Below are positions 1 to 53,458 of a stretch of 64,000 bases of DNA, in pieces (position 1 is the first letter of the stretch; the number at the start of each line of letters is the position of its first letter). Source of the stretch: a virus; the IMG/VR virus record IMGVR_UViG_3300019776_000919, positions 1 through 64,000 of that record; one strand, written 5' to 3'. The notes under the pieces were generated by a model. That model had not been told where the DNA came from. It searched no databases and saw nothing but the letters and a program-made list of their open reading frames with translations. Made by a program: the position numbers and the translations under genes.

Positions 1-1101
1 AGCAACCCTTCACCATCAAGTCCCCTCATGGAAGAGGGTACTGTTGTACAACTAGATATTCAAAGATCATTATGCAAAGTTAAAACTTTGAAGGGACAAC
101 TTTTACAAGATGTTACTTGGGCTTTACCATCAGGAGGTTCGACTCGTGGATCAATTAGAGTAACACCTTCTATGGGTGATCGGGTTATTGTTAATTTCGG
201 ATTAGGATACCCAATAATTACAAATTTCATCCCTAGAATACAGAGCCTTAATAGCGTAGATTCCTTAGTTATTGGATCAGGGGAAGGTTCAGTAGACATG
301 GGTTCATATGGTCCAAGTTCCGGGTCGGTTTCCGGGGACCAAAATAAACCCGATGACATGGTCGGCGGAGACACTCTAGTATCTTCTTCTGGAGGGGCTA
401 CTGTAGCGACTTTAAAGGGCGGTTCTGCGCTAATGAGAGCTGGCAGAGGTGCCGAAGTATTCTTGTTTAATTGGATTGGACTTGTCAGAATTGTTTCTCG
501 GAATTGGGCTCATTTTACAGACCTAAGTTCAGACGTAATAAAGAATTTCAACAATAGGCTTTATAGATATACTGGATATTCAAAATCTTTTTCTGATAAT
601 AAAAACGAAGATTACAAACTACATTTTTATTACGGAGATGTGAAAGCTGCTGAAACTATAAAAGCTGGATATGATACTTATACAGGTACTCCTGCTACAG
701 ATAGCATCTTATATAAGGAACAAGTCTCTGGACCCGCTTCGATAGAATATTGTAAAAGAACATATAATGATTCTGGTGAAATGGAGATTCTCATAAACAA
801 CGGGACTCATGTAACAAGAATAGTTCAAACAGCGGAACAGGTGCAAATAACTTGGAACAATCAAAACATTGTAACCATTACGGAAGCTTCTATTCATGCT
901 GTCCATAAAGACGGAGCGGATCTAATAATGGATTCCTCAAGTATAAGGGCTACCTTTGGAGGTAGCGTAGCTACTATAGCTAATTCTCAAGCAACCATTA
1001 CAAATGGGGCTGGATCTTTAACAGTAAGCCCTTCTACTACTTCCCTTGTAAATGGTGGACATTCTGTCATAGTTTCAAGTTCCGGGGTCAGTATTAGTTA
1101 A
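1..1101 (+). CDS. Baseplate spike / hub protein with OB-like domain (5' end may lie outside window)
   Basis: Likely part of the central baseplate spike. The first ~75 residues after the ATG at 28 read as a small beta-rich OB-like domain (short strands with GD and GYP turns), as in gp5/gpV-type spike proteins. It is followed by a glycine/serine-rich linker and a beta-rich C-terminal half with short repeating strands that ends in a Ser/Val/Gly-rich tail, as in trimeric spikes. The frame is open to base 1, so the protein may begin upstream; there is no Shine-Dalgarno before the ATG at 28. It heads a same-strand run of surface or tail genes. Function is inferred from fold-like features and context. 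Confidence 0.6.
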   Translation, partial: SNPSPSSPLMEEGTVVQLDIQRSLCKVKTLKGQLLQDVTWALPSGGSTRGSIRVTPSMGDRVIVNFGLGYPIITNFIPRIQSLNSVDSLVIGSGEGSVDMGSYGPSSGSVSGDQNKPDDMVGGDTLVSSSGGATVATLKGGSALMRAGRGAEVFLFNWIGLVRIVSRNWAHFTDLSSDVIKNFNNRLYRYTGYSKSFSDNKNEDYKLHFYYGDVKAAETIKAGYDTYTGTPATDSILYKEQVSGPASIEYCKRTYNDSGEMEILINNGTHVTRIVQTAEQVQITWNNQNIVTITEASIHAVHKDGADLIMDSSSIRATFGGSVATIANSQATITNGAGSLTVSPSTTSLVNGGHSVIVSSSGVSIS

Positions 1102-1119
1102 GGCTAAAATAAAGTACTA

Positions 1120-1704
1120 ATGGCTTACGACATATATACCAGGTCTTTTGGTACCCCTAATGCTAACAAACTAGTTTCTATTTCTTCAGTAGCTACCGGT
1201 CAACCAGCATTAATTTTATCTTCCCCTTTAGGGGGAGTTGTATCAACAACTGGAATGACTCGGCTAGATTCCAATGGAAATCTATATGTTTGTATCGATA
1301 CATCTGTTAGTTGGAATATTGCAGTACTAGAACAAAATTTTGTTAATGATTCTTCTGTAAGTTTAATAAGAAGAGTTGAGAAATTCGATTTGCTGAATAT
1401 AAAAGGAGAGTCTGGCACTATATATATAACTAATACTCTGCCAGTAGAATATTATCTCTGGGATGGTTCAGGTATGGTTTTATTACCGACTGCTATCCAA
1501 AGCAATTCCTTAAAAGGATATTCAGATTTAAACATTTCAAATATAGTCTATAATGATTCTGGTAAAATAGTAAGTTACATTAAGAACGGTGTTACTCATA
1601 CGGTAGATTACTCTGTACTTGGCAAGGTAACTATAAGTAATACTTCTGGTGCAAGCAAAACGTTTGTGCTAAATAACCAAGGAAAACCAATCTCTTTCAA
1701 TTAA
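1120..1704 (+). CDS. Unknown virion-associated protein
   Basis: A 194-residue protein of unrecognised family. It is rich in Ser, Thr, Val and Asn with alternating hydrophobic residues, typical of beta-structured phage surface proteins. It follows the spike gene by 18 bp and precedes the next gene by 2 bp, so it is probably co-transcribed with the baseplate or adhesin genes. No catalytic motif, signal peptide or membrane segment is visible, and no ribosome binding site is evident. Confidence 0.55.
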   Translation: MAYDIYTRSFGTPNANKLVSISSVATGQPALILSSPLGGVVSTTGMTRLDSNGNLYVCIDTSVSWNIAVLEQNFVNDSSVSLIRRVEKFDLLNIKGESGTIYITNTLPVEYYLWDGSGMVLLPTAIQSNSLKGYSDLNISNIVYNDSGKIVSYIKNGVTHTVDYSVLGKVTISNTSGASKTFVLNNQGKPISFN

Positions 1705-1706
1705 TC

Positions 1707-2093
1707 ATGGCAAAATTTGCGCATTCAGACACCCTAGATCAAGGCCCTAATCTTATTAAAACTTCCGCTACTAAAATGTTGTTAATATCTTCATATACCG
1801 TAGGGGATAGTTATGCAACTGTTACAGCTAATACCTTAGCTACAGTTAATATGACAAGTACGGATTATACTTTCTCAAGTTCAGGAAATAATAGACTTCT
1901 GACTGTGGCTAGTGGTAAATCTACTACTGCCACCGCAAGTGCTTCCGGTACTCCAGATTTACACATTGCTTTTACTGACGGCACCTCTAGAGTTTTATGG
2001 GTAACTGACGAAGCAAGTAATGTGGCTATTTCGAGCGGAGCTACTATCAATTTCCCGTCAAACATAACCTATACGACTCAACAGCCTACCTAA
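1707..2093 (+). CDS. Small beta-rich virion protein, Ig-like
   Basis: A 128-residue protein, rich in Thr, Ala and Ser with short strands, resembling a single immunoglobulin-like or decoration domain. Only 2 bp separate it from each neighbour, indicating translational coupling within the adhesin run. I do not recognise a named family. A capsid or tail decoration role is a guess from composition and position. Confidence 0.5.
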   Translation: MAKFAHSDTLDQGPNLIKTSATKMLLISSYTVGDSYATVTANTLATVNMTSTDYTFSSSGNNRLLTVASGKSTTATASASGTPDLHIAFTDGTSRVLWVTDEASNVAISSGATINFPSNITYTTQQPT

Positions 2094-2095
2094 TA

Positions 2096-3505
2096 ATGGC
2101 TACCCCCGTATCTAGTTACTTCGGCAACTCAGGAGGAAATAATAGCTATATCGGTATGGCTACACCTACTATTGCCCCAACCGGGAAGCAGGCGTTACTT
2201 TCAATCATACAAGCCGCCCCCTTAGGCTCCTGGTTTAAGGTTAATAGTAATGTATATCAATCGGTATGGGGGTCTACAGATTATGAGCCTGATTTTGGAG
2301 CCGGAGTTTCTAGCCCAGATGCTCAAATAAGACCCTGGTCTTCGTTTGCCTGGGATGACTCTGCCTGTAGATTAATTCTATGGGGAGGAGGTCATGCCAA
2401 CAGTTCAAGTAATTCTATGTGGATTTGGGAAGGCAAAGACCAACTTTGGAAAAGAGCTTTTTATCCAGCAAAGTTAACTGCTGCTGGAAATGATACAATA
2501 GATGGGGGACTAAGCAGTCCTGTAAGCTCCCATACTTATAGAAACCAAGTTTATTTATCTGTTATGAATAAGTTTGCTAGTTTCGGAGGGGCTTGTCAAC
2601 CAAGCGGGGCTGGTTGGGTATTACGAGATTCAGGCGGTACTGTGCTAAGAAGTATTATATGTTATATTGCAGACCTATCTAAAGCAGGATTAGGTATGGT
2701 GGGAGGCGCTTCTGGCAGTAATCAAAAAAGAAATTCTACTGCTTTAGTAAGTGTAGCCGGGGCACAAGCTTGGTCGGCAAGGGATTGGATAGGGGTTGGA
2801 CAATCTACGTCAATAACTAATTATTTATTGACAAGAATAAACGGATATGCTCAAGCTACTGTAGAATCTGGAAAAGACGTGGTTTACTTAAGTTGTGGAC
2901 CGGGAGGAGCTACATCTTTATATCTGGTCCGAATAGAATTTAATTCCGACGCTAGTACTGATGTTTTAACAATAGTAGGTGCCCCTGGTAGTAACGGTGC
3001 AAACTCAATGGGTGGAGCTATTGACACCACTAGAAAAATATCTATTGCAGCGGGAACTTCTACCAATCCTTTTTTCGTATGGAATCTAAATACTCCAGGT
3101 TTAAGTAATTACAGCATATCTGTACCTACATCTGCAATATCTGGGACTGGGGCTTCAGATGTCATATCTGCTATAACATCTGGATCGGCGTTGGGATTTT
3201 TATATGATGAAAAACGAAATTGTTTTATCATATGGCTTTGGGGAGGAATGCTGTATACTTTAACTCCTCCATCTAACCTATCCAATCTAGGAACGTCTGG
3301 GTGGATATGCACTAGAATATCTGACAATTCTGCATCACCCAGGCCTTTATACACTGGGGAGTTTGTACCCTCGGGGGCTCAAGAAACCGGCATACATGGT
3401 AAATGGCAGAGATCTGCTACATTAGATGTATATATAGGCTTACAAAATTCTTATGACGGGAATGTTTGGATGTACAAACCTTCCGATTGGACACTACCAC
3501 CATGA
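2096..3505 (+). CDS. Kelch / beta-propeller-like tail protein
   Basis: A 469-residue protein with several repeated blocks of the kind W-x-x-F-x-W-D followed by a LWGGGH-type turn and a W-W strand. This is what one expects from kelch or galactose-oxidase-like propeller blades (clear around residues 75-115 and 360-385). Such propellers in phage tails usually bind host surface sugars, so a receptor-binding role is inferred. Its stop codon overlaps the start of the next gene in an ATGA arrangement. Confidence 0.5.
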
Positions 3506-4809
3506 CCATTTCTCTTAATACAAGTCACTCTCTATATCCCAATCTAATATCATTGATTGCGGTTGATGGCGGTGTTCTAGTCGATGTAAAAAATCCATCC
3601 ACTGTATTTACCCCAGATGCATCTAGTTCATTTGGAACCGGGGGTTACGGACCATACTTCAGAACACTATCTGCTGGTACATATTCTCCTCAAGGCGCAA
3701 GTTTCTCTCCAGCCCTTTCATTTCCAACATCTTCTACGCCATTATCGTATTTTGTTGCCTTTAACAAAGTTGAGACAAGTGGTAGATTACTAGGTCATAC
3801 TACGGGAGGAGATACTTATTTACCCAACCTTGCAGTAACTGCAGGCGGGTTAGCTTCTATCGCAGAAGGTTACTCAGGCAGCACTTTAGCCACCGGTACT
3901 ACTAATATTAAAGACGGTGCACAACACACCGTAGCAGTGACGAGGCCTGCCGGAGATAGCCCCGCCTCTATTCTTTATGTAGACGGGGCATCCCAGGCCA
4001 CAGCTTCCGGGGTAAATTACGGAACTGCTGGGGTAGGGGTAAACTATATTGGCGGGGAACCCGGTCAGAATTCTATAACTGCAAATATTGTATTTATAGC
4101 ATTTTTTAATAAAGTCCTAACCTCTGCTGAAGTTTCAACCTTACACAGTTCTCTGACAGGGGGAGGATCTTTTGCCCTCATACAAGCTGCTGCGTTGTCT
4201 TTTTCTGGAACTATACCTGGACAATCAGGTGTTGTAGGGACAGCATTTTCGTGGTCTGGATCATCCTTAGCTAGCTTCTTTTCAAACGGCACAGCACCCA
4301 TTTCGTATTCTTATACGGGAACTTTGCCGCCTGGATTATCTTTCAGTACCAGTACTGGGATTATATCTGGTACTCCTACTACTCAAGGCACATACAACAT
4401 AACGCCTTCTGCTACGGATTCAAGTGGTAGTCCGGTTACTGTACCGGGAAATTCTTTCTCGATATCTATATTAGGGGCCGGGACTAACCTAACGGTATCT
4501 AGCAGTACTCAAAGTAATTTAAGTTCTACTGGTAATATTACTCAAATAGCCCCGGGCCAAGGCACGATTACTACCCTACCTTTGAAAAATAATACAGGTA
4601 GTTTACTAGCGTCAGTCTCCAATATAACTGTATGGATTTACAACGTATCTACTGGAGCTTTGGTCTTAACGTATAACGGCTTATTGTCCAATTCAAGCGG
4701 AATTTTAACTTTTACCGATCCTTTAATAGTATCAGGAATTTCTTATAGATTAGTTATACGTATTAATTCTACTGGGGCTGAGGGTTTAGTTACTGTAACT
4801 GCGGCGTAA
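3502..4809 (+). CDS. Adhesin with LamG-like and putative Ig (He_PIG) domains
   Basis: The start was chosen at 3502 because this ATG overlaps the previous stop (ATGA); an in-frame ATG at 3466 also exists. Residues ~1-225 look like a concanavalin/LamG-type jelly roll with a typical GGE..-N/S-strand ending. Residues ~235-325 hold a putative Ig domain with the diagnostic LPPGLSF...GTPTT..G.Y pattern of the He_PIG family. The C-terminal third adds another beta domain that begins with an STQSN-type motif shared with the next gene. The role is probably host-surface binding. Confidence 0.6.
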
Positions 4810-4813
4810 TGAA

Positions 4814-5632
4814 ATGAGTAAAAGCATCAGAGTAGATACTAACAGCCTAATATCTGGGGCTGTTGTAATAGGTGATAGAGGATTAGGAGTTTCAGGATCC
4901 TCTGTACCTAGTACCGGGGCGGGTGGCCCGGGGTATATTTATCCAAGTTTAAATCTCCCGGCTGATGCTAACAATGAATATATCGGGTTAATAGTAAGTC
5001 CTCCGTCTGCAGGGACTTTTTTTGCTAATGAAGATACTAGCGCTACCCTAACTGGAGCATCGACAGGCATATACCCATTTACAGTAAACTTAATAGAAAA
5101 TGGGATTAGCTTAGGGAATTTTACTAGCTATTTCTATATAAATACACCTATACCTGTAAATCTGGTTGTTGCAAATTCTGTTCAAAGTAATACTTCTACT
5201 AGCGTAACCATAACTAGAGTTAACAACTTAGTTGTTTCTAACTCAACTCAATCTAATTTTTCAAATTCAGTATCAATTTCACAAACTGTAAATTTAATTT
5301 CAGTTGCATCTTTACAGTTAAATAGTTGCAGTACGGGAACTATCAGTATCAGTTCTGGGTTACAAGCAACGTCTTGTGTACAAAACAATACAAGTTCTAC
5401 GGGGGCAATCTCCGTATTCTATAATTTACAAGGGTCTAATTCAACGCAGCAGAACTCTTGTACTTCTGGTTTTGTCTATGGACCCGGGTTAGGAATCCCC
5501 TTAGATGTAAGTCAATCCACCCAATCAAACTATTGCTTTAGTGGACCTATCCAAGTTTTACCTCCAGTATTTGTAAACATAATACCTATAACTGCAGGTA
5601 TTACCCTGGACGGTCAAATCATTCTTTTCTAG
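4814..5632 (+). CDS. Repeat-containing tail surface protein
   Basis: A 272-residue protein. After a ~110-residue N-terminal domain it carries about six imperfect repeats of ~22-27 residues, each centred on a (S/N)-x-Q-(S/L/N)-N motif followed by Ser/Thr/Gly and a hydrophobic strand. The same motif occurs once in the upstream adhesin. It probably forms an elongated beta-solenoid or fibrous module on the tail. This is the last plus-strand gene before the minus-strand reverse-transcriptase cassette, and its 3' end overlaps the convergent gene at 5619-5885 by 14 bp. Confidence 0.55.
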   Translation: MSKSIRVDTNSLISGAVVIGDRGLGVSGSSVPSTGAGGPGYIYPSLNLPADANNEYIGLIVSPPSAGTFFANEDTSATLTGASTGIYPFTVNLIENGISLGNFTSYFYINTPIPVNLVVANSVQSNTSTSVTITRVNNLVVSNSTQSNFSNSVSISQTVNLISVASLQLNSCSTGTISISSGLQATSCVQNNTSSTGAISVFYNLQGSNSTQQNSCTSGFVYGPGLGIPLDVSQSTQSNYCFSGPIQVLPPVFVNIIPITAGITLDGQIILF

Positions 5633-5885
5633 TTTTAGATGCCGGGTGATCGCCCCAATGAACCTTACCTTTAAATAAAGGCGGAGGAATCCAACGGGGT
5701 TTCGGGGAGATGGGGCCAAAACCTACTACTGCAATTTCACCGTTTTTACGAAGTCTGCCAAACATTACATGAGGAAAAGGCCCCCAGTGGGACCTTCTTA
5801 TAACTAAGAACCCTCTTCTGTTTTTTAGTTTTCTCCGCCTGTATAGGATTAAGGCGAAAATAATGCAATTAGAATAACCCCTCAT
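5619..5885 (-). CDS. Small conserved basic protein (RRSxWGPxPH / PRWIPPPLFKG type)
   Basis: An 88-residue basic protein with two striking conserved-looking motifs: RRSHWGPFPH near the middle and PRWIPPPLFKG with a trailing WGDH. As I recall, these motifs occur in small uncharacterised proteins of proteobacterial phages and plasmids. Function is unknown. It is convergent to the structural genes and lies downstream of the reverse transcriptase on the same strand, but a terminator hairpin at 5961-5993 separates the two. Confidence 0.55.
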   Translation of the reverse strand: MRGYSNCIIFALILYRRRKLKNRRGFLVIRRSHWGPFPHVMFGRLRKNGEIAVVGFGPISPKPRWIPPPLFKGKVHWGDHPASKTRKE

Positions 5886-5960
5886 TCTTGTATTTTAAGT
5901 CTGGGTCTACTTACAATGTAAGTTATTACAATATGTTAAATAAGCTAAAAAAAAATAAGC

Positions 5961-5993
5961 TAAAAAAACAGGTTATATTTAACCTTGTTTTTT
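5961..5993 (-). terminator. Terminator hairpin downstream of the RT gene
   Basis: The stem ACAGGTTA/TAACC-TTGT has one bulge and an AT loop. It is flanked by A7 on one side and T6 on the other, so it could act on both strands. It lies just after the stop codon of the reverse transcriptase. Copies of TAAGCTAAAA flank it. Confidence 0.6.
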
Positions 5994-6000
5994 ACCAGAA

Positions 6001-7227
6001 TTATGTAGTTATCTGTGATACGGTGAAATCGGAGGAATTCTTAAACCCCAACATCGCCTCTTTTATTTCCTCTGTAGTAGCAGGCATTTCTATGCCAGAG
6101 TTCCACGATAGTTCAGGTATTTGAACATCCGGATATTTTTTCAGATACGGTGTGGTAACTTTCTTGAATGCCAGTTTAAACGCCATACCGGCATCTGGAT
6201 TTAGCTGACACATCCAGTTTATGCGACCGGCATATTTCCGTATGAAAGCCTCGGGACTAAGCCTCGTTTTTGCCGCTTCGTGTTCTATTCCGTTTTGTTT
6301 GCAATTGTGAATTATTGCTCTAAGTTGAAGTCTTTCTGTTTTCTTTAAATTTACTTTTTCATTAACTACCGATCCACATACCCATTGTCGGTTATGCGGC
6401 CTCATGACTTTTGTTTTGGCATTGTTGATCAGAAACCCTGCATCATTGACAGCTTTCTTGATCGTATCCAATATAAGATTGGTATGTTCTTTTGCTTGAT
6501 CTAATGTATCAAATTTTTTATTATGAGATACTGTGATATCGTCTGCATAAATAGTTAGTTGCAGTTCATTCTCATCACAGAACGCTTTTACTACGGGGCC
6601 GAATGTGTATGCTGCAATTAAGTTACTAATTTTCGGGGCCGTTAATGAACCTTGAGGAACGTAAAACTTATAGGTGCATGCTTCTGCCAACAATCTTGCT
6701 GGCATTTCACCTATACCTAATTCCTTAAACAACTGTTCCACCATATATTCTTTAATGGATGGAAAAAAGTCTTTAATATCAAGGCTTATTACCACTTCTT
6801 TACCTAAGTGCTTTTCAGCCATCTTAGGAATAGATTTCCCCTTTTCAAATCCGTAAATGTATTCGGGGATTTCTACTTTATCCAGTATCCTACTTAAAAT
6901 TCGATACTGTAATACTCTCATCCCCGTATTTGGATTATGAATTTTCCTCAGCTTCTGCTTCGACGATTTCGTAGCCTTCTTCTTCAAGAAGAGTATGGAG
7001 TAGTGTGAGTTCTTGTTCTTTATAAACCAAGTCAGCTTCTGAGTCGTCTCCCACTCCAGTAACTTGGTCAAATCCTTGGATGTTGCGATCCCCGATATCT
7101 TTTGAAGTATTGGGTTTAGCTTGAACCTCTTCTGCGTCTTGCTTAGCTGTTTTGGTTCTTTCTTTTGTTCGATAATCATTATTGCAGAAGTCGTCATATG
7201 TAAGTGTTGTTTTTTTTGCCGGTACAT
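6001..7227 (-). CDS. Retron-type reverse transcriptase
   Basis: All core RT motifs are visible. There is a Y..LFLKKK..LRKIHNP block (motif 0/1) and an Q..IL.....P...GF.K.KSI block. DIKDFFPSI carries the first catalytic Asp, PQGSLTAPKISNL is motif 4, IYADDITVS holds the two catalytic Asps, and AGFLINNAKTK is followed by W-V-C-G-x-V-V-N in place of the retron V-T-G-L-V-V-N block. The order and spacing match retron RTs such as Ec86 closely; QG (not the IG/SQ of diversity-generating RTs) is present. The first ~98 codons overlap the upstream gene in another frame. Likely starts are the in-frame ATGs at 7197 or 7179 as well as 7227. No template RNA or effector could be assigned. Confidence 0.88.
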   Translation of the reverse strand: MYRQKKQHLHMTTSAIMIIEQKKEPKQLSKTQKRFKLNPILQKISGIATSKDLTKLLEWETTQKLTWFIKNKNSHYSILFLKKKATKSSKQKLRKIHNPNTGMRVLQYRILSRILDKVEIPEYIYGFEKGKSIPKMAEKHLGKEVVISLDIKDFFPSIKEYMVEQLFKELGIGEMPARLLAEACTYKFYVPQGSLTAPKISNLIAAYTFGPVVKAFCDENELQLTIYADDITVSHNKKFDTLDQAKEHTNLILDTIKKAVNDAGFLINNAKTKVMRPHNRQWVCGSVVNEKVNLKKTERLQLRAIIHNCKQNGIEHEAAKTRLSPEAFIRKYAGRINWMCQLNPDAGMAFKLAFKKVTTPYLKKYPDVQIPELSWNSGIEMPATTEEIKEAMLGFKNSSDFTVSQITT

Positions 7228-7663
7228 GTCTAATGGATCGTATTACGCCTCTTTTCAAATCACCTAGCGTTACGTAATACAATTCACGATCTATTACTAC
7301 AAACCCTTCTCTAACAATACCGGGGGGGAAATTTGCCCTCCAAATATTGTCGTTCATACGGGCTGGGGTCCCCATTTTATAGTAATAAAACTTCCCTTGA
7401 TAAGGGACTATATATCTACTTGATCTTCGGGCCAGCTTACTATCTACTTCTCCGTAAGCTGTACTACCTTTTGGCGCAATTATCTGTATACCAGTCTCAT
7501 ACGAAGGTATTTCATACCCGTAATCTATAAGATCTTTTTGAGTTACAGATATATTTTTTGGTATCGATGACCCGGCTTTAACGTATATTACTCCTTCTTC
7601 TTGTGGAGTTGCATTTACTCCAGCTGTTGTAGTTTCTACTGATTTGCTATTAGGAGTGCTCAT
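6935..7663 (-). CDS. Unknown protein overlapping the RT gene
   Basis: A 242-residue protein of unrecognised family: a short disordered N-terminus, a central compact region (residues ~30-150) rich in Tyr, Gly and Lys, and a very acidic C-terminal tail. Its last ~97 codons overlap the start of the reverse transcriptase in a different frame. It is in the same cassette and reads from the promoter at 7928. It could be a partner or effector of the RT, but nothing in the sequence shows an enzymatic activity. Confidence 0.55.
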   Translation of the reverse strand: MSTPNSKSVETTTAGVNATPQEEGVIYVKAGSSIPKNISVTQKDLIDYGYEIPSYETGIQIIAPKGSTAYGEVDSKLARRSSRYIVPYQGKFYYYKMGTPARMNDNIWRANFPPGIVREGFVVIDRELYYVTLGDLKRGVIRSIRHVPAKKTTLTYDDFCNNDYRTKERTKTAKQDAEEVQAKPNTSKDIGDRNIQGFDQVTGVGDDSEADLVYKEQELTLLHTLLEEEGYEIVEAEAEENS

Positions 7664-7699
7664 TTTATCTGTATCAGATCTTGAGCCCCCGAAATTTTT

Positions 7700-7849
7700 T
7701 TAAATAGCTGACGAAGTTTTGAACTGTTCCCGAGTAGTCAATATCACATTTCTGACAGTGTGATAGATTTCCAGGATAAAGTTACCAACTAAGATCATTG
7801 CTTTAGCTACTGCTTTAATTTTCGGGAGGAGGTTTAGTAAAGAGTTCAT
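7700..7849 (-). CDS. Small hydrophobic protein
   Basis: A 49-residue protein from the ATG at 7849 (an upstream ATG at 7894 would add 15 residues). Residues ~12-28 form one hydrophobic segment that could span a membrane or be a toxin-like helix. It lies between the early-type promoter at 7928 and the gene that overlaps the RT, so it is the first gene of that transcript. Its small size makes the call tentative; the same DNA could instead be transcribed as a structured leader or retron RNA. Confidence 0.4.
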   Translation of the reverse strand: MNSLLNLLPKIKAVAKAMILVGNFILEIYHTVRNVILTTREQFKTSSAI

Positions 7850-7927
7850 ATTTAGTTTTATTGTTTTAATGTAAAAATTCAGGTAAAATGACAAACTCTA
7901 ATTGGTCGTTCTATTCTACCTATTTTT

Positions 7928-7936
7928 CTTATACCA
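7928..7936 (-). promoter_or_regulatory. Early-type extended -10 promoter (RT cassette)
   Basis: TGGTATAAG on the minus strand followed by A4, the same box found upstream of eight other minus-strand cassettes in this window. The -35 is weak here. It faces the small hydrophobic gene and the RT operon. Confidence 0.65.
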
Positions 7937-7964
7937 GAAATTAACGAATTGTGTAGCAAATTAC

Positions 7965-8537
7965 ATGACGGAATTAAAATCTAACATGGTTTTAAATGGG
8001 GATTTTCTATTGTCCGCTCTTTCTAAAGAAAGATTGGCTAAATGTATAGATGAAAACCCCTCACTTAGAGGGTACATACGAGGGTATATTTCTGAAGAGA
8101 AATTACGGGATTACTTAGAAAATATTCCGGGTATTTCCGAAGTGAAAAAAATTCCCGATCTTCATTCTAAGAAGGGAGATTTTTCTTTTTTATATCAGAA
8201 AAAAGAATACTCAGTGGAATTGAAAAGTTTAAGTGATGATGTAAAAGAAGACTTTTTAAACTCCGGAGTCAAAGCATCCTTAAGTTTAAAAAGGACAGGT
8301 ATTCGTAAATTATCAGATGGTAGAACAACCATTTGCTTAGATAGAAATCAATTTGATATCCTGGCTATTTGTACTGTATCCATTGCTGGAGAATGGGGTT
8401 TTAAATTCATACTTAATAAATATCTACCAAGCGCCAGTATTGGACAAGAATACTTAAGCTCCAGTATAGTAATAAATACTGAAAATACTCCAATGCTGCG
8501 GGACACTATAATAGAAGTTTTAACAGATATAAGCTAA
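7965..8537 (+). CDS. Putative PD-(D/E)XK-like nuclease
   Basis: The start is taken at the ATG at 7965 because the longer frame (ATG 7902) runs through the promoter box of the opposite strand and encodes an unlikely leader. The protein has 190 residues. Around residues 75-95 it has a G-D-F-x-F strand followed 13 residues later by V-E-L-K. This Asp...Glu-x-Lys arrangement, with an upstream helix, is the signature of PD-(D/E)XK nucleases. No family was recognised, and the remainder gives no further clue. It is divergent from the RT cassette and begins the next plus-strand run. Confidence 0.45.
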   Translation: MTELKSNMVLNGDFLLSALSKERLAKCIDENPSLRGYIRGYISEEKLRDYLENIPGISEVKKIPDLHSKKGDFSFLYQKKEYSVELKSLSDDVKEDFLNSGVKASLSLKRTGIRKLSDGRTTICLDRNQFDILAICTVSIAGEWGFKFILNKYLPSASIGQEYLSSSIVINTENTPMLRDTIIEVLTDIS

Positions 8538-8546
8538 AATCTTAAC

Positions 8547-9188
8547 ATGCAATTGTCAAACGATCAGATCGTAAGCATTCTAATGGCCAAATATAAAAAA
8601 GATGGCGTAGATATGTCTCGTATCGTAGCGGATCCAGTTTTCCGTAGCCTGCCTTTAAATAGTCAAATTGAAGCATTGAAAGATAATGCGAATGATATCC
8701 ATTCTTCAATTAAGCCAGGATTGAATAACTCGGATATTAAGTCTATGGCCGTAGATGCTGGGTTTGCAGGAGTAGCAAGTACCCTAGGTGCAGGGGCTAT
8801 TATTGCAAAATCCGGCCTTGTAAATGGGGAAACTTTATCCTCAGTTCCAAGTCTAATTGCCCATAGCAAAGCTATGAGAAATGTAACTATCTTTGCAGGC
8901 CTTTCAGGCCTTGCTATTGGAGGATTAGCTTCTTTATTAAACAAGAGGTCTGAAATTAATCGAAGAAAAAATGCTGCTGCAGTTACTGAAAGCCTTTCTT
9001 TGAACCCTACTTCGGAGCGGGCTGTTGTAGCATTATCCAAGTTGCAGACATTCACAGGGTCAGGGGTAGATACTCAGATTGCCAACAGGGCATCCAGTAT
9101 GATGCTTGATAAATATAATAAAGGCAGCGAAAACATATTGCCTAACCTATATCAAGATAGGTTTCTTACTCATTTAAATTCCAAATAA
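8547..9188 (+). CDS. Unknown protein with two hydrophobic segments
   Basis: A 213-residue protein with hydrophobic, Gly/Ala-rich stretches at ~68-90 and ~112-130, which could be a membrane hairpin or buried helices. The ends are polar and helical. It is followed 4 bp later by another unknown gene, and sits in a plus-strand block with structural genes, suggesting a virion or assembly role. No motif was recognised. Confidence 0.5.
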   Translation: MQLSNDQIVSILMAKYKKDGVDMSRIVADPVFRSLPLNSQIEALKDNANDIHSSIKPGLNNSDIKSMAVDAGFAGVASTLGAGAIIAKSGLVNGETLSSVPSLIAHSKAMRNVTIFAGLSGLAIGGLASLLNKRSEINRRKNAAAVTESLSLNPTSERAVVALSKLQTFTGSGVDTQIANRASSMMLDKYNKGSENILPNLYQDRFLTHLNSK

Positions 9189-11024: not shown

Positions 11025-11053
11025 CTAAAAAAGAGGGTTAACCTCTTTTTTTC
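11025..11053. terminator. Bidirectional terminator
   Basis: The hairpin AAAGAGG-GTTAA-CCTCTTT is flanked by an A-run on the left and T7 on the right. It separates a plus-strand gene ending at 11019 from a minus-strand gene ending at 11066, so it can end both transcripts. Confidence 0.8.
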
Positions 11054-11065
11054 TTCTTGTTAAGA

Positions 11066-12277
11066 TTATTCCGTCATAGGTTGTAACGGAGGTATTCCTT
11101 CAGGAAGTGGTGGGACAGGGATGGGGTTTAAAGTTACCCCTTCACTCTCTGGTGTTGATGCATCGGCAGTAGACGTAGCTACCTTTTTCTTCGGTTTTTT
11201 CACCGGAGTTAAAGGAGGTACTTCTTTAGACACTTGAACTTCTGGTACCGCTTCTTCTTTTGGAGGTCGAGGAATAGATTCAAAGTCCCCGGAAATAGTA
11301 ACCCTAAGGTTAGCTGCGGCGTAATCTACTAAAGTACTTTCTACGGGTTTCCAAAGAGTTTTGAATTCTTTAGTGTCACAGCCGTATAAAAACTCCCCAA
11401 CGTCTGATTCCGTTTTGCTGTGGTTTGTAGCACAACGCCGAATCCATTGCCGAGGCGTATTCCACTCTGTTACAATTGAGCCGTCTAAAGCATATCTAAT
11501 CCCGTCGTACGCCATAGGTTTCAAATACAAAAAGTTTTGAACTGTCGAGCATATCAACGCAGCCATCATATTGTTAATGGCTAACGATTGGGGTAGATCT
11601 ACGCAAGATAACTCAGACGCACTGCCACCTAGATCATTGTAGTAAGCCAGGTCAATCGGAATATAGTCTACATCTTCTGGGGCGGACAAGGCTTTCGGTA
11701 CATAATCTACCTTCCGTTGATTAAACGTAGTAGGTACAGAATTAGTGGTAAAAAATTTGATTTGACCGAAAGCATCCTCGTTACCAGCATCAATTACAAA
11801 TATATTCCTGGCACCGGTACTTGCCGTACGGTACAAGGACTGAGGACCTCTATATAAGAGGTTTCTCAAAATAGTTCGTCTAGCATCAGCAGAGTCAACT
11901 GCCAAAATAACTATTGAATTATTAAAGCTCGGTAATTGATCTGCTCCGATAAAAGTTATATTACCGGATAGAGTTATAAATTCAGTACAAGCAAAAATAG
12001 GGACGCCAAACGCATTGGCGTATCTGTTTGCTAATACTGCCGCTTTATTTTTTCCAACATCCTTTGCGACAAAATGTTGTCGCATCAAATTCTTCTCTTC
12101 TACTATGTCCCCGTCTATAACATAGATTGGTAGATTTGCAATCCAAGCTTGAGGGTTAAATTTAGTAGTACATGTTCTAACTAATTGAGATAGACCAGGC
12201 ATAAGCCTAGATCCGGTTCCACCAGCTCCGATTAGGATGATTGAACTGGGAACAAAATGAGGTTTATAATTGTACAT
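11066..12277 (-). CDS. E1-like / ThiF-family adenylating enzyme (PRTRC ThiF type)
   Basis: The first ~260 residues form a ThiF/MoeB/E1-type Rossmann domain. It has a GAGGTGS nucleotide loop at ~17-23, the YVIDGD strand, the N-L-x-R-Q block with Asn, Arg and Gln, and a downstream Lys (GKNKA). The ILAVDSADARR strand follows. Such enzymes adenylate the C-terminus of a ubiquitin-like protein. The C-terminal ~70 residues are a Pro/Lys/Glu-rich disordered tail. It is the last gene of a cassette that also holds a ubiquitin-like protein, an E2-like protein and a JAB peptidase, in the order seen in plasmid PRTRC clusters. It has its own upstream promoter (12315). A catalytic cysteine could not be assigned with confidence. 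Confidence 0.85.
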   Translation of the reverse strand: MYNYKPHFVPSSIILIGAGGTGSRLMPGLSQLVRTCTTKFNPQAWIANLPIYVIDGDIVEEKNLMRQHFVAKDVGKNKAAVLANRYANAFGVPIFACTEFITLSGNITFIGADQLPSFNNSIVILAVDSADARRTILRNLLYRGPQSLYRTASTGARNIFVIDAGNEDAFGQIKFFTTNSVPTTFNQRKVDYVPKALSAPEDVDYIPIDLAYYNDLGGSASELSCVDLPQSLAINNMMAALICSTVQNFLYLKPMAYDGIRYALDGSIVTEWNTPRQWIRRCATNHSKTESDVGEFLYGCDTKEFKTLWKPVESTLVDYAAANLRVTISGDFESIPRPPKEEAVPEVQVSKEVPPLTPVKKPKKKVATSTADASTPESEGVTLNPIPVPPLPEGIPPLQPMTE

Positions 12278-12314
12278 AAGTATGTAAGGGTATAAGTAAA
12301 AGTATTACCTTCTA

Positions 12315-12323
12315 CTTATACCA
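12315..12323 (-). promoter_or_regulatory. Early-type promoter upstream of the E1 gene
   Basis: TGGTATAAG on the minus strand, with TTGTAA 16 bp upstream of TATAAG. It lies between the JAB and E1 genes, giving the E1 gene a promoter separate from the rest of the cassette. Confidence 0.6.
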
Positions 12324-12336
12324 GTTTTTTGTTTAT

Positions 12337-13902
12337 TTACAAACCATTAGCCGCCAAATCATCTTTTGCTTTTTCCGGCAAAAGTTCAGCAAGCCGACGA
12401 AAAATATTGAGTCTATCACTCTCCCGAATAACTTCAAACATTCCGCTGATACTGCGCTCCAGCAAAACGGGGGAAGATGCTAACGTAGGAGTAGCTAAAT
12501 CAACGGCCATGTATGCTCTTGCTGCATCTACTCCGTGATTTATAGCAATCGAATCAAATTCACCCATCTCAGGGCCATTTTCTCCTACGAGTTCAGCTGC
12601 TGCCATATTGCGATCTATTTCCCGGAAATACTCGTCAGCTTGTTGACTCAAACTATCGTCTGATGCATCTTCTTGACTGAAAGAAGTCTCGATGATTCTG
12701 CGAGCGTTTTGCTTAATGGTTTCAGTTTCCGGATCCCCTGCCATGTTAGCAAAAAGTTCGTTATAGTCTTCTTCCGTCAATGCACCGTTTCCGATTTCCA
12801 CCAATTGAGACCCGTCTCCTCGAAATCGGCTCCCCGGCGGGACTCCTTCAGTATCTTGTGCCTTTGATGACGCGGACGTTTGAGTAGTTTGGCCCTGTTG
12901 GTGACGGCTTGTTTTCTGTTGCTTTTTCATCTCCGACGCTTGGCGTCGAAGTTCCCGCTTGATAGATTTTTTTGACACTGCACCCCCTTGGGCAGAAGTG
13001 TTTGTTTGAGTTGAAGTAGATTCTTCGTTAGAAGTGCCGGTCTGTTGTACCCCATGAATAGGTCCCGACATTCCATACCCAAAGCCAAAACTTGTTTGAG
13101 CGGGAGGGTTATTGTTAACTTGTCTAACGGGAAAATAAGTACGAGATTGGTTACTCTGCCAATTCCCATAATTACCGCCAGGGTAAGACACTGCTGCCGG
13201 AGTGTTGACGTTTACCTTGTCCAACCAAGTAGAAGGGATTTCTTTAGGAAGTTCTTTTTGTTCAAACAAGTCTGTCATTTGAACATCCATTCGACTGCCG
13301 TGGTAGGTAAAGCGGAATTTCATACTACGTTCCGGCTTATCGTTATGTCCGATAACTCCACTATACCGAATGCAATTTGTGTCGTCCCGATCATCAGTGC
13401 CGCTAAAGAATGCATTGAAGTCGGCATGTGAATGGATATCCACAACAATGGTAGATTCAGGAGGCAAAGACGACCAGTCATATGTTGCGCTGGCGTGACC
13501 TACAGTTTGGTTTGGAACGTGAAGGTGGTAACCTTCTTTCTCATTCCAAAGAATCCAAATCATTGCTTCGAGCGCTTTACCCTTCTTCACAATAACTTGG
13601 CGGAAGAATTCTTTAACTTCATTCAGCAAATCCATCGGGATTTTCCCGTCTGGTAGAAAATTAATCCCGGGAGTAACCTTAGGCAACGTAGCCCCAGGGA
13701 TTTCCTTAACCGGTAGACAAATATACCGAGCTTTGCCGCCAGCGCCAGGGCGCAAAATGTGATATTTAACCGGACCAGTTTCACTCATCATAAAGATTTG
13801 ACTGTAACCCTGCTGAATAGCTTGCTCTAGGGGGGTTATTCCATCAACAGTCTCATCTCCAAGTTCGATAATGCAGGAGATATAGGGTGCTAAGATTTTC
13901 AT
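12337..13902 (-). CDS. JAB/JAMM-domain peptidase (PRTRC protein A-like) with long C-terminal extension
   Basis: The catalytic metal-binding motif is complete: HSH followed by seven residues, Ser, two residues, Asp (within VVDIHSHADF...FFSGTDD, residues ~155-175), preceded by an N-terminal strand-rich region with a candidate catalytic Glu. JAB peptidases of this kind remove or process ubiquitin-like proteins. At 521 residues it is far longer than I expect for plasmid PRTRC protein A. The extra ~290 residues are Gln/Ser/Pro-rich and largely disordered (residues ~235-350), followed by an acidic helical tail. It follows the E2-like gene by 21 bp. What the extension does is unknown. Confidence 0.85.
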   Translation of the reverse strand: MKILAPYISCIIELGDETVDGITPLEQAIQQGYSQIFMMSETGPVKYHILRPGAGGKARYICLPVKEIPGATLPKVTPGINFLPDGKIPMDLLNEVKEFFRQVIVKKGKALEAMIWILWNEKEGYHLHVPNQTVGHASATYDWSSLPPESTIVVDIHSHADFNAFFSGTDDRDDTNCIRYSGVIGHNDKPERSMKFRFTYHGSRMDVQMTDLFEQKELPKEIPSTWLDKVNVNTPAAVSYPGGNYGNWQSNQSRTYFPVRQVNNNPPAQTSFGFGYGMSGPIHGVQQTGTSNEESTSTQTNTSAQGGAVSKKSIKRELRRQASEMKKQQKTSRHQQGQTTQTSASSKAQDTEGVPPGSRFRGDGSQLVEIGNGALTEEDYNELFANMAGDPETETIKQNARRIIETSFSQEDASDDSLSQQADEYFREIDRNMAAAELVGENGPEMGEFDSIAINHGVDAARAYMAVDLATPTLASSPVLLERSISGMFEVIRESDRLNIFRRLAELLPEKAKDDLAANGL

Positions 13903-13923
13903 GGTAGTTTCTACGCTTATAAA

Positions 13924-14703
13924 TTAATAAATTCGAAGTTCTTCGTAAGGAAAAGTGCCACCTTGATCGGCTAACTTTTTAAGGTGAGAATACCACTTAG
14001 AGTATTCCTCGTTTCGGAATTTAGGTTTTAACGCTGTTAAACCCAAGTCGTTATTAAAAGGAGCATCAAACAGTAATTGGTAGTAGGAGTGCAAACCTCT
14101 TAAATCTGGAAGTTTGTATGAACTGATTTTTGTATTGGATCCGTAACAAAGTTTTCCAGATTCATATACGTTAGTAAACGGTAAGATCGATACTCCATTC
14201 TCAGCGGTTATAAACGTACGAGGAATCTCTTGTAGAGAGTCCCTAGTTGCATAGTAACGCGTGTCATTGACTAAATATTCAGTCGGCCCGCTTTTTACCA
14301 ATGATTGAGAAATGATTACGTTCGGAAAAACAACATTGAACGGGCTATTGCTTAGATATTTAATCGGTTTAATACCGCCCGGATAATAGCAACAAACTCG
14401 AATTCCGTTTTTCGATTTTTCAAAATAAAAAGCGCCATTCGGCAACCATATTTCTTGTTTTTGAGATTCCCCAGTATCAGAAGCTTCCACGTTTGCATTC
14501 AGAAGCCCGATAAATTCAGGGTAACTAACAACTTTGTAAAGGCCAGGTGTTAGCTCTAGGCGGACACTATTCTGAAGCATTTCTACTTTGATAGCCTCCA
14601 CAGTAATTGTTTTTACGGGTTCCTGTTTAACTTCAGGGGGTTTTTCTGCGGCTGCGTCTTGTTCAACTACCGCCGTGGTATCTAATACAAAATCTGAACT
14701 CAT
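13924..14703 (-). CDS. E2-like protein (PRTRC protein B-like)
   Basis: A 259-residue protein. The central to C-terminal part (residues ~95-215) matches the E2-like fold of the PRTRC protein B family. It has a tryptophan/YPGG strand, a D-T-R-Y-Y-A block, and a diagnostic L-P-F-x-N-V-Y-E-S-G-K-L-C-Y-G-S segment whose Cys is the likely thioester-forming residue. The first ~35 residues are disordered and acidic. Its start overlaps the stop of the gene before it by 4 bp. Role inferred: accepts the ubiquitin-like protein from the E1 and passes it to a target. Confidence 0.75.
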   Translation of the reverse strand: MSSDFVLDTTAVVEQDAAAEKPPEVKQEPVKTITVEAIKVEMLQNSVRLELTPGLYKVVSYPEFIGLLNANVEASDTGESQKQEIWLPNGAFYFEKSKNGIRVCCYYPGGIKPIKYLSNSPFNVVFPNVIISQSLVKSGPTEYLVNDTRYYATRDSLQEIPRTFITAENGVSILPFTNVYESGKLCYGSNTKISSYKLPDLRGLHSYYQLLFDAPFNNDLGLTALKPKFRNEEYSKWYSHLKKLADQGGTFPYEELRIY

Positions 14704-15086
14704 AGGAAATCATCTAAGTCCGGTATTGAATACAAAGTAGGGATCTTTTTTGCCATAAAATTTAAACCTTGTATGGCTTTAGTCTTATCCGTGTAATTTT
14801 TATAGACGTGCCTGAGCATTGTATCTGCTATCAATCTCAGGTCTTCACTCACCCCTAAAGCTATTAAATCTTGCGGTGGCTTTACTTCTGATTGAAAACT
14901 TTTAAAGTCTTTTCTATAAATATAGGGATCAGGACCTATTGATTTAAGACTAGGGAGAATCCGGTCTCCAATAGTGTCTTTTGCACCAATAGGGCTAGAC
15001 AGTATCTTAATAGTTTCCCGGATCTCACCGAGGTCATCGGCCTTTTTTACATTAAAAGCTTGGGATACTAAGTTTGATAGGTTCAT
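14700..15086 (-). CDS. Unknown protein of the conjugation cassette
   Basis: A 128-residue, mainly helical, basic protein with no recognised domain. It overlaps the upstream gene by 35 bp and the E2-like gene by 4 bp, so the three are translationally coupled. In plasmid PRTRC clusters other genes occupy this slot. I do not know whether this is a diverged counterpart or a phage-specific substrate or adaptor. Confidence 0.55.
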   Translation of the reverse strand: MNLSNLVSQAFNVKKADDLGEIRETIKILSSPIGAKDTIGDRILPSLKSIGPDPYIYRKDFKSFQSEVKPPQDLIALGVSEDLRLIADTMLRHVYKNYTDKTKAIQGLNFMAKKIPTLYSIPDLDDFL

Positions 15087-15927
15087 TGGCGACCAATCTC
15101 GTAATTGTTTTCAATATTGTTGGGAGCTTCGGTAAGTAATATAGAGGATGCACTGGTTGATCTTTACTAGACTGCAAATACTCCTGTAACAGGGTATTAA
15201 CCAATTTAATGCTTTCTTCAGGATTGGATTTAATAGGGTCCATTTTAATTCTAAATTTATCCATAAGGTAACCGTATTTCCTATCCGTAATCCCGTTGAA
15301 ATTTCTGAAATCCCTCATGTTAAGGCAATCAGCAGTATCTGGGAAACTTGCGTATGTTTTATCTACCCGATTATTAGCCGGGATTATTTTTTCGCAATAA
15401 GTTGCTCTTTTGCTGAAAGTATGTATGACCCATGAGACCTCGAATATCTTCATTTCAGGTAGCAGTTTGCCATGGGCCAAATCTTCCATTAAGGTTCCAG
15501 CTCCTTTTTGATAAGGCGTTGGATTTAAAATCGATACTGAATTTTTTACACCCATTAAATTGGTAACGCAAAACTTCTGTATGAGCCGAACGTATCGCTC
15601 TAATACTTTAGTCTTTCTCGCTGCGCCAAGTTCAGTATCTACAAATCTAAATGTCATTACTAAGGATAAAGGATCCTCTGTAACCATTAATTGGAAAAGA
15701 TGATTGTCATAGCTCAGAGCTTCGGAAACCATCTGGGCTCGAATCCCATCCCGAATGTGCCGCCCTGAAATATTGTGTTGGCCGGTTAGGGCCCGCATAT
15801 AAGGAATCTTCTCCGCTAAAAGATCAGTGGACATCTGATCTAAAAGTGTTTTTATTACAGAGTCTGCAGCAACGTCTGTAATTTGAGAATCTTTAGGTAT
15901 TTTTATTTGAGTAACGATGCCTGCCAT
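15052..15927 (-). CDS. Putative PRTRC protein F-like protein
   Basis: A 291-residue protein without an obvious enzymatic motif; mixed helix and strand, with a YPELT-free, Lys/Arg-rich middle. The identification rests on position: in plasmid PRTRC clusters protein F follows the ubiquitin-like protein C and precedes the B, A and ThiF genes, as here. It starts after the terminator that follows the ubiquitin-like gene, so it depends on readthrough or on an unrecognised promoter. Sequence similarity could not be judged by eye. Confidence 0.45.
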   Translation of the reverse strand: MAGIVTQIKIPKDSQITDVAADSVIKTLLDQMSTDLLAEKIPYMRALTGQHNISGRHIRDGIRAQMVSEALSYDNHLFQLMVTEDPLSLVMTFRFVDTELGAARKTKVLERYVRLIQKFCVTNLMGVKNSVSILNPTPYQKGAGTLMEDLAHGKLLPEMKIFEVSWVIHTFSKRATYCEKIIPANNRVDKTYASFPDTADCLNMRDFRNFNGITDRKYGYLMDKFRIKMDPIKSNPEESIKLVNTLLQEYLQSSKDQPVHPLYYLPKLPTILKTITRLVANEPIKLSIPSF

Positions 15928-15953
15928 ATACCCTCAGTTGTAAATTGAAGGAC

Positions 15954-15979
15954 TAAAAAAAGCAGGCATCTTGCCCGCT
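15954..15979 (-). terminator. Terminator between the ubiquitin-like gene and the rest of the cassette
   Basis: On the minus strand GCGGGCA-AGA-TGCCTGC (one G-T pair) is followed by T7. It sits directly downstream of the ubiquitin-like gene. Partial termination here would make that protein more abundant than its enzymes. A second small hairpin (TAGCC/GGCTA) lies at ~15985-15999. Confidence 0.8.
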
Positions 15980-16002
15980 TATCCTAGCCTAAAAGGCTAA
16001 AA

Positions 16003-16212
16003 TTAACCCTTATTTCCCGTGCGGGGGGCAAAGGTAACTTCTCGAACATCACCCTCCGGGGTGGTGTTGACAACCGTGGTAGCAGTCATGTTATTGATGC
16101 CAGGGATCTGGGCACCGTACATACTTTGAATGCGAGCTGCGTCAAAGTCACCGGGGATGTTGTACAGAGCGTCGATGCTGGGGACACGGATAATAGTCTT
16201 AATAACGGCCAT
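16003..16212 (-). CDS. Ubiquitin-like protein (PRTRC protein C-like)
   Basis: A 69-residue protein whose length and layout match PRTRC protein C, a beta-grasp ubiquitin-like protein. A strand of the I-I-R-V type comes first, then a DFDAARIQSMYG helix, a P-G-I-N-N-M-T-A turn, two strands, and a C-terminus R-T-G-N-K-G. It is the first gene of the cassette, directly behind an early-type promoter and followed by its own terminator. The C-terminus ends in Lys-Gly, not Gly-Gly, so either the single terminal Gly is activated or the tail is trimmed. A weak AAGAGA sequence precedes the start. Confidence 0.72.
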   Translation of the reverse strand: MAVIKTIIRVPSIDALYNIPGDFDAARIQSMYGAQIPGINNMTATTVVNTTPEGDVREVTFAPRTGNKG

Positions 16213-16292: not shown

Positions 16293-16321
16293 CTTATACC
16301 AGGTATTGCCAAATTATTGAA
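16293..16321 (-). promoter_or_regulatory. Early-type promoter for the ubiquitin-like cassette
   Basis: On the minus strand TTCAAT (16321-16316), 17-bp spacer, TATAAG in the extended form TGGTATAAG (16301-16293), followed by AAAAGTAC. A hairpin with AAGAT/ATCTT stem starts a few bases downstream, at the expected 5' end of the transcript. Confidence 0.75.
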
Positions 16322-16352: not shown

Positions 16353-17948
16353 ATGGAAATTAAAGCATCTCAATTAGCCCCTGCAATTCTTCAACTAAAG
16401 GGGAAGCCGTTAGACCTGTCAGAGTATAAACCGTTTGAACTCGTATACGACGTATCTCCTCCTACATTAACTGCGTGTTGTGGAAGACAGATAGGTAAGT
16501 CAGTTAGTTTGGCAAGTGCTATTACAACAACGAGTATTTTACGCAAGCATTTTTCTACTCTGTTTGTAAGTCCTTTATCCCAGCAAACTTCTAGATTTTC
16601 AACTCAATATCTAGAACCTTTTATTAACTCTCCTATTGTTAAAAATCACTTCATAGATGCGTCTTCTAAGAAAAACGTATTTTCTAGAACTTTTACCAAT
16701 GGCTCTGCAGTTACTTTAGGTTACGCAGAGACGGAGCAAGACGCCGACCGTATTCGTGGGGTTTCAGCGGATCAAATGTATTTTGACGAGGTACAGGATG
16801 CCAGTTTGGAAGCTTTGCCTATTTTGGAAGAAACGCTGTCTGCCTCCGAGCACATGTTTAGACGATACACCGGTACTGCAAAAGGGGAATCGAATACTCT
16901 AACAGTTTTGTTTAAAAGATCTAACATGTTGGAGTGGGTTGTAAGATGTACTCACTGCGGAAAACACGCTATACCCAATGAGTTTGAAACCTGTTTAAAA
17001 ATTATTAACGCCAATCCTAACGGCCCAGGTTGTCCACATTGCGGCGGGTTGTTGGATATGAAAACTGGAGTTTGGATGGCTGGTAAACCAAGTGTAAAAA
17101 ATCACGTAGGTGTTCATATACCTCAATTTTGCATTCCAGCTAGAACCACCCCTAAGAAATGGGCGGAGTTGGTAGATAAGGCAAAAAGGTACGATCACAT
17201 TAAATTAAGTAATGAAGTTTTTGGATTACCCGTAGGAGCTGGTGGTAGACCTCTTTCTTTAAGACAAGTAATGGGAGTCTGTAACCCTTCAAGAACTTCT
17301 TTTGATACAGGTTTTCCTAAAGACGATAGAAATATCCTATTTACAGTGCTAGGTGTAGACTGGAGTGTTACGGGATCCGAAAAGAGTTATACCGTCGTTA
17401 CTGTTCTGGGATTTGACTACTCTGGTAAACAGTATATTGTGTACGCTCAGAGATTGGATGGTATTGATATACTAGCTCAAGTATCTAGAGTAATAGAACT
17501 CTATAGACAGTTCGAATGTTCACATATTGCCTCAGATAGAGGGGTTGGTGTTCTACAAGGTCAATTAATGAAGAGAGCACTTGGAGATGACAAAGTTAGT
17601 ATGATTAATTACGTTGCTGCAAAAGCGAACCTCCGTTTCGATAAAGAAGGTAATTATTTTGCTGCAGATAGAACTTTAGCAATTGATACTGCAGTTATCA
17701 AGATCAAGATGGGGCCCAGTAAATTGGAATCTCCAGCTTGGTCATTAATGGAAACGTTTTGGAATGACGCCCTGCATATATACGAAGAGGAATCGCATAG
17801 CGGTAGACGACTGTACAGAAAAGATGAGGACGGCACCGACGATTTCTTACACTCCTTAGTTTTCGCAAACATAGCTCATATGATTGTTAAAGGTGACTTT
17901 ACATATCAAGATAAAGAATCAATTGAAGATGATACTTTTAATTTCTAA
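16353..17948 (+). CDS. terL: Terminase large subunit (GpA-like)
   Basis: The DNA-packaging motor of 531 residues. The N-terminal ATPase shows Walker A (CCGRQIGKS, ~43-51) and Walker B (MYFDEVQD, ~139-146). A zinc-ribbon-like insert with two C-x-x-C pairs (CTHCG, CPHCGG) follows at ~196-233. The C-terminal RNase H-like nuclease has acidic residues in VLGVDWS, ASDRGVG and DDFLHS. The order ATPase, Zn ribbon, nuclease resembles lambda gpA-type terminases. There is no Shine-Dalgarno. No small subunit is recognisable nearby. Confidence 0.92.
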   Translation: MEIKASQLAPAILQLKGKPLDLSEYKPFELVYDVSPPTLTACCGRQIGKSVSLASAITTTSILRKHFSTLFVSPLSQQTSRFSTQYLEPFINSPIVKNHFIDASSKKNVFSRTFTNGSAVTLGYAETEQDADRIRGVSADQMYFDEVQDASLEALPILEETLSASEHMFRRYTGTAKGESNTLTVLFKRSNMLEWVVRCTHCGKHAIPNEFETCLKIINANPNGPGCPHCGGLLDMKTGVWMAGKPSVKNHVGVHIPQFCIPARTTPKKWAELVDKAKRYDHIKLSNEVFGLPVGAGGRPLSLRQVMGVCNPSRTSFDTGFPKDDRNILFTVLGVDWSVTGSEKSYTVVTVLGFDYSGKQYIVYAQRLDGIDILAQVSRVIELYRQFECSHIASDRGVGVLQGQLMKRALGDDKVSMINYVAAKANLRFDKEGNYFAADRTLAIDTAVIKIKMGPSKLESPAWSLMETFWNDALHIYEEESHSGRRLYRKDEDGTDDFLHSLVFANIAHMIVKGDFTYQDKESIEDDTFNF

Positions 17949-53429: not shown

Positions 53430-53458
53430 CTTATACCAAATTACAACTGATTATTGAA
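53430..53458 (-). promoter_or_regulatory. Early-type promoter for the hen1-pnkp operon
   Basis: TTCAAT (53458-53453), 17-bp spacer, TGGTATAAG (53438-53430), then AGTAGTGC. Confidence 0.75.

Follow-up and report, generated by a model that had tools for sequence, protein, structure and literature searches.

Prokaryotic operons that combine an E1, an E2, a ubiquitin-like protein (Ubl) and a JAB peptidase have been known from sequence since 2006, and the ones whose role is known serve bacterial defence. To our knowledge, no function has been established for the PRTRC type. Here we describe a cassette resembling this type on the minus strand of the virus record IMGVR_UViG_3300019776_000919. The window analysed comprises bases 1-64000 of this 169,713-base record, and six consecutive minus-strand open reading frames (ORFs) encoding 69, 291, 128, 259, 521 and 403 aa run from 16212 to 11066. 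This cassette is genuine and not a chance arrangement, because dozens of viral contigs show an identical order of genes. A first-pass annotation, made from the letters alone, had proposed a phage cassette of Ubl, E2, JAB and E1 genes on this strand; the ORFs lie where it had placed them, and their families and catalytic residues were matched.

The closest described systems are the PRTRC clusters of plasmids (class 6d of Iyer et al., PMC1779556; for example on Polaromonas plasmid pPNAP01). They have in common with the cassette the order Ubl, ~300-aa protein, E2 (Prok-E2_D), JAB and E1, a Ubl ending in G-x-K-G, and the conserved E2 Cys, JAMM and E1 motifs. Unlike them, the cassette has an additional small protein, here called X, long JAB and E1 tails, FNN in its E2 where PRTRC B has FTH, and scores that all fall under the PRTRC cut-offs. 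The PRTRC order C-F-B-A-ThiF is thus kept, except that X precedes B and that the protein at the F position is dissimilar. All of the class 6d core set was found, namely a Ubl with a C-terminal Gly, an E2-like protein with a Cys, a JAB protein and an E1. ParB_N was not detected in the 169.7-kb record, where positive controls were recovered, and PRTRC_E gave no match there either, a weaker negative since no control was recovered. The PRTRC label therefore applies to the core genes and their order only. Judged from its genes, the cassette works like a PRTRC core and is not a full PRTRC member. No description of PRTRC or of such a cassette in phages was found in the literature searched, which included few subscription journals and no preprints.

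The last gene of the cassette (11066-12277) encodes an E1/ThiF-like adenylating enzyme that matched PRTRC_ThiF (TIGR03736) with an E-value of 4.4e-25 and 88.4 bits against a curated cut-off of 144.75, making it homologous but under the cut-off, and Pfam ThiF at 1.8e-10. In alignments with phage and plasmid relatives, G17xGG, D55, D57, N63, R66, Q67, K78, D128 and C225 were invariant; the E1 alignment was too diverse for a pattern scan. Similarity spans ~240 residues and includes the catalytic Cys, so the E1 assignment reaches well past the nucleotide-binding loop. The JAB/JAMM metallopeptidase (12337-13902), which carries a long C-terminal extension, matched PRTRC_A (TIGR03735; E 1.5e-19, 70.4 bits against a curated cut-off of 101.8) and Prok-JAB (2.3e-8). 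The complete JAMM motif that had been reported for it was upheld by the same kind of alignment, with E112, H157-S158-H159, S167 and D170 invariant across relatives.

In three lineages the JAB gene is interrupted at the catalytic HSH motif (positions are given as contig:bases). Rfam identified group I introns in Acinetobacter phage ME3 (L008:5862-6198) and at L072:9318-9595, and group I introns at the JAMM site in two lineages were counted as typical of conserved working genes. The inserts in L122 (5778-6914), L123 and L143, of ~1.1 kb (0.3 kb in L123), had no Rfam match.

The E2-like protein (13924-14703) scored just under the gathering score of Pfam Prok-E2_D (22 bits against 25; 1.5e-4), and this family was matched by 20 of 24 members of the E2 family, the best at 8.7e-47. 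Its score against PRTRC_B (TIGR03737) was 12.5 bits, with an E-value of 0.068 and a cut-off of 131.45. The candidate catalytic residue C186, together with G188, is invariant among phage and plasmid relatives within P-x-x-N...C-x-G. Its model matched no ubiquitin-conjugating (UBC) fold in the PDB, so the label 'E2' rests on profile and Cys. A conserved His downstream of the Cys has been reported for class 6d E2s (Iyer et al., PMC1779556), and we take it to be the His of the FTHP motif of plasmid PRTRC B, whose place in the window protein is held by FNND. Among 81 viral E2s, 44 match FN.D and 18 an FTH-like pattern.

The first gene of the cassette (16003-16212) encodes the 69-aa Ubl ending in ...PRTGNKG. 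Its tail, G66-x-K68-G69, was invariant in an alignment with PRTRC C and viral Ubls. The window Ubl alone matched no curated family, PRTRC_C included, whereas 8 of 23 relatives matched PRTRC_C (best 4e-29) and 7 of 23 matched Prok_Ub; a tblastn search of plasmids with the Ubl gave no match. An AlphaFold2 (AF2) model with a pLDDT of 91 has a ββ-α-ββ arrangement and a disordered free tail, and its top PDB matches, to protein L/G B1 domains, CIDE-N and a Ub-like domain, are all β-grasp folds. The protein is therefore predicted to be a small β-grasp ending in GNKG, as had been proposed, on the strength of the topology and the nature of the best matches, none of which was significant.

A Ubl gene is present in 74 of 81 non-redundant viral loci. 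In 13 of these 74 genes the Ubl is repeated in tandem, with two to six units that each end in G-x-K-G (six in L092, five in L038 and four in Bacillus phage KLEB27-3), and residues extend beyond the last G in 36 of the 74. By analogy, the tandem genes are polyubiquitin-like. Tandem and C-terminally extended Ubls need to be cleaved, presumably by the JAB protein. The window Ubl ends at G69 and needs no cleavage, so JAB here would mainly deconjugate. Bacterial poly-Ubl operons (Iyer class 6e) resemble the 13 viral relatives in encoding several Ubl domains in tandem within a gene, but in most of them E1 and JAB are fused and the E2-like domain has no Cys; the cassette has E1, JAB and a Cys-bearing E2 as separate proteins.

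The match of E1 to ThiF models and the small size of the Ubl are also what a sulfur-carrier or cofactor pathway of the ThiS/MoaD kind would give, with E1 acting as a simple adenylyltransferase. We consider this highly improbable, given that an E2-family protein with an invariant Cys and a JAMM peptidase are nearly always present alongside, that the Ubl tail is G-x-K-G, and that no thiamine or molybdopterin gene lies within or adjoining the cassette.

Two proteins lie between Ubl and E2. The first, a fast-evolving protein of 291 aa (15052-15927), sits at the PRTRC F position and has positional homologues in the clade. It had been called a probable protein F, an identification that we reject: the resemblance is one of position and size alone, the hhalign probability was 0.06%, the protein had no NCBIfam match, and none of 19 family members matched PRTRC_F. 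The second, X (128 aa; 14700-15086), occupies the spot between the F position and E2 across the clade, with F127 nearly invariant. Its C-terminus is an acidic stretch followed by D-F-[ILV]-COOH clade-wide (DLDDFL in the window), a tail reminiscent of the docking tails of the single-stranded DNA-binding protein (SSB) type. As a guess, these two proteins might be substrate adaptors. Searches of curated profiles with the 69-, 291- and 128-aa window proteins returned nothing of note. Across the set, the hidden Markov model comparison with PRTRC families put forward in the first-pass annotation gave matches under the cut-off for ThiF and A, matches to C among relatives but not for the window protein, and no significant match to B (E 0.068) or F.

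One scan with the JAB alignment retrieved 80 viral loci, and nearly all of these ~80, although found by JAB alone, carry E2, JAB and E1 in order. The distribution was tested without presupposing the cassette by searching with the divergent neighbour of the Ubl gene, the terminase large subunit (TerL; 16353-17948, plus strand; phrog_675 terminase, 3.4e-52), which serves as a marker of the clade. The window terminase is 46% identical to that of Salmonella phage Arash and 42% identical to those of Vibrio phages D69/D148/D181, which have both terminase and cassette in common with the window phage. Among contigs with a terminase identity of at least 45% (plus one at 36%) and at least 2.3 kb of upstream sequence, 40 of 40 carry the cassette, near-duplicates being included in this count. 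For 38 of the 40, the fetched flank included an opposite-strand E2 gene; the other two, L098 and L144, correspond to the contigs of L021 and L038, where the cassette is located beyond that flank. At loci with a terminase identity of 33% or less, the cassette was in none of the fetched flanks. In a midpoint-rooted tree of E1, E2 and JAB, 27 terminase-linked cassettes formed one clade with a support of 1.0, separate from the plasmid PRTRC branch, and distances correlated with terminase distance (Mantel r of 0.90 for E1, 0.83 for E2 and 0.91 for JAB; p <= 0.0002). Presence in all assessable contigs of the terminase clade, monophyly and the Mantel correlations together indicate that a single clade of large phages (~165-190 kb) carries the cassette as a vertically inherited core component. 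The cassette also occurs in more distant phages, among them Bacillus phage KLEB27-3, Acinetobacter phage ME3 and Burkholderia phage BgVeeders33. Terminase matches in bacterial genomes, sought as a pointer to the host, were only distant (<=30%). Relative to the nearest relative, E1, JAB, E2 and Ubl are 46-65% identical, neighbouring genes 33-74% and the terminase 88%; Red-Queen divergence as a mark of an arms race was rejected, as the cassette identities fall within the range of the neighbouring genes.

Accessory counter-defence genes are usually patchy. The presence of the cassette in all assessable clade members and its co-inheritance with the terminase therefore speak against an accessory module directed, by inactivation or mimicry, at host Ubl-based immunity such as CBASS type II or Bil, although a core gene could have such a function too. 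Related enzymes do act in bacterial anti-phage defence (PMC10097602, PMC11354881), and E1 gave weak PADLOC E1-E2 matches. Bil (ISG15-like) and CBASS type II (Cap2/Cap3) likewise apply the logic of E1, E2 and JAB to a protein target; unlike the cassette, they are bacterial defence systems with different E2 families. No component specific to either family was matched, the weak E1 matches covering the nucleotide-binding part only. An accessory counter-defence module thus appears distinctly unlikely.

K-mer enrichment combined with strand bias revealed a motif, TGGTATAAG, with 30 copies in the 169.7-kb record, 30 on the minus strand and 0 on the plus strand (~1 expected per strand). The sites are mostly intergenic, 30-90 bp before minus-strand genes such as that of ribonucleotide reductase, and the fuller consensus of the class is TTCAAT-N17-TATAAG, with TGG preceding the second box and AATAGTA usually following. 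Two sites lie within the cassette. The one before Ubl (16293-16321, minus strand), in short form TTCAAT-N17-TGGTATAA, has TGG in the extended -10 position, resembles a sigma-70 extended -10 promoter and is conserved in 22 of 23 relatives; the other (12315-12323, minus strand) lies 46 bp before E1 and lacks the TTCAAT box. A scan for the sigma-70 consensus showed no enrichment over shuffles, and a search for plus-strand (late) promoter motifs gave weak AT-rich repeats only. A hairpin-plus-T terminator just past the Ubl stop codon (15960-15980, minus strand) has equivalents in relatives, being present at 20 of 21 loci compared with 3 of 105 shuffles; terminators after other cassette genes were found in 1 of 20 loci for E2 and 7 of 21 for JAB. 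Ubl should therefore be produced in excess over the enzymes. A bidirectional terminator-like hairpin (11027-11051) closes the cassette. The suggestion that the cassette is transcribed separately, from a promoter of its own, is thus backed by a genome-wide motif, and its promoters belong by sequence to the class of minus-strand, non-structural genes. Arash uses the same minus-strand class. This promoter class argues against a purely late role in virion assembly and points to action, probably, in early to middle infection.

Arash (OQ632216), a myovirus, is a characterised member of the clade (PMC10585845). It has the cassette beside TerL and shares with the window phage the promoter class, the terminase, portal, RNA polymerase subunits, capsid and many other structural genes; its E1, E2 and JAB are 31%, 29% and 32% identical to those of the window. 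No gene is recognised as Ubl machinery in its annotation. The true Arash Ubl, of 66 aa and ending in RRTGTKG, lies at OQ632216 180513-180713 (L004:107-307), where another, wrong overlapping frame is annotated (gp251c); it was evidently absent from the proteome search database.

The Arash data bear on whether the pathway acts late instead, tagging or processing virion proteins in head or tail assembly or being packaged and injected. The cassette keeps a fixed place next to terminase and tail/spike genes across the clade, Arash E1 and E2 bear the product name 'structural protein', and Gp246-249 and Gp251 were listed by mass spectrometry of purified particles (PMC10585845). Lambdoid phages, moreover, have a Ubl and JAB pair in tail assembly (PMC1779556); this pair, Lambda tail proteins I and K, differs from the cassette in belonging to tail assembly genes and in having no E1 or E2. 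Promoter class and strand, however, are those of non-structural genes. The numbering of coding sequences also differs, with 252 in the paper and 251 in GenBank, and an apparent offset of one after gp239 explains all five GenBank 'structural' labels of this region. With this offset, Arash particles would have held E1 (3 unique peptides), JAB (2), E2 (5) and the F-position protein (2). Such counts fit intracellular carry-over, which is likely because 116 of the 252 proteins appear in the particle proteome, primase and DNA ligase among them at two unique peptides apiece (PMC10585845). We regard a late or virion role as unlikely.

Overall, we hold with moderate confidence that the cassette encodes a complete phage Ubl conjugation and deconjugation pathway, vertically inherited, with intracellular proteins as its probable substrates and early to middle infection as its probable time of action. 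E1 would adenylate the Ubl at its exposed C-terminal Gly (GNKG), the Ubl would pass from C225 of E1 to C186 of E2, and it would then be attached to a lysine or other nucleophile of a target. JAB would remove it and, in relatives, also mature tandem or C-terminally extended precursors. Targets may be intracellular proteins of the host or of phage replication and transcription. Given the conserved K-G tail, tryptic digestion would leave the target lysine with one Gly (+57.02 Da), a mass shift that iodoacetamide alkylation also produces and that would confound routine proteomics.

Several points count against this interpretation. Conjugation itself, a UBC fold of E2, intracellular targets and timing are inferred, the timing from promoter and strand only. 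No PDB match of the Ubl model was significant (all E >= 0.06), and the E2 AF2 model (pLDDT 86) found no UBC fold match in a Foldseek search of the PDB (best E 0.16). The window E2 also lacks the class 6d downstream His. The cassette sits between structural genes, and the listing of E1, E2 and probably JAB and the F-position protein in the Arash particle proteome could point to a virion role. Near-duplicates, finally, are part of the count of cassette-bearing contigs.

The cassette lies between plus-strand genes: on one side they end at 11019, and on the other the terminase begins at 16353. Elsewhere in the window, two group I introns (Rfam, ~3e-18 each) lie on the minus strand at 62169-62467 and 62815-63073 among ORFs similar to Arash DNA polymerase genes, and a Pnkp-Hen1-type RNA repair gene pair (49481-52078 and 52075-53376, minus strand) has a TGGTATAAG promoter ahead at 53438. 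A reverse transcriptase (6001-7227, minus strand; PF00078, 1.3e-23) near structural genes is possibly part of a diversity-generating retroelement; only one weak direct repeat of at least 40 nt was found within 1-8600. Outside the window, at record positions 116420-119812 and 120110-121264, two ORFs take the place of the single RNA polymerase beta-like gene gp206 of Arash, through an intron, a frameshift or a real split.

The cassette is fixed and vertically inherited in a clade of lytic phages of which one, Arash, has been cultured, and this makes its function testable. If our interpretation is correct, this would be a viral pathway with a full set of writer and eraser enzymes, with polyubiquitin-like genes maintained in phages. 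More speculatively, and in our estimate improbably, these phages may obligately run a complete Ubl cycle, some with a polyubiquitin-type precursor, and E1, E2, JAB and conjugates may travel in the virion and tag host proteins from the first minutes. Protein tagging looks like a fixed part of the life cycle of this phage family.

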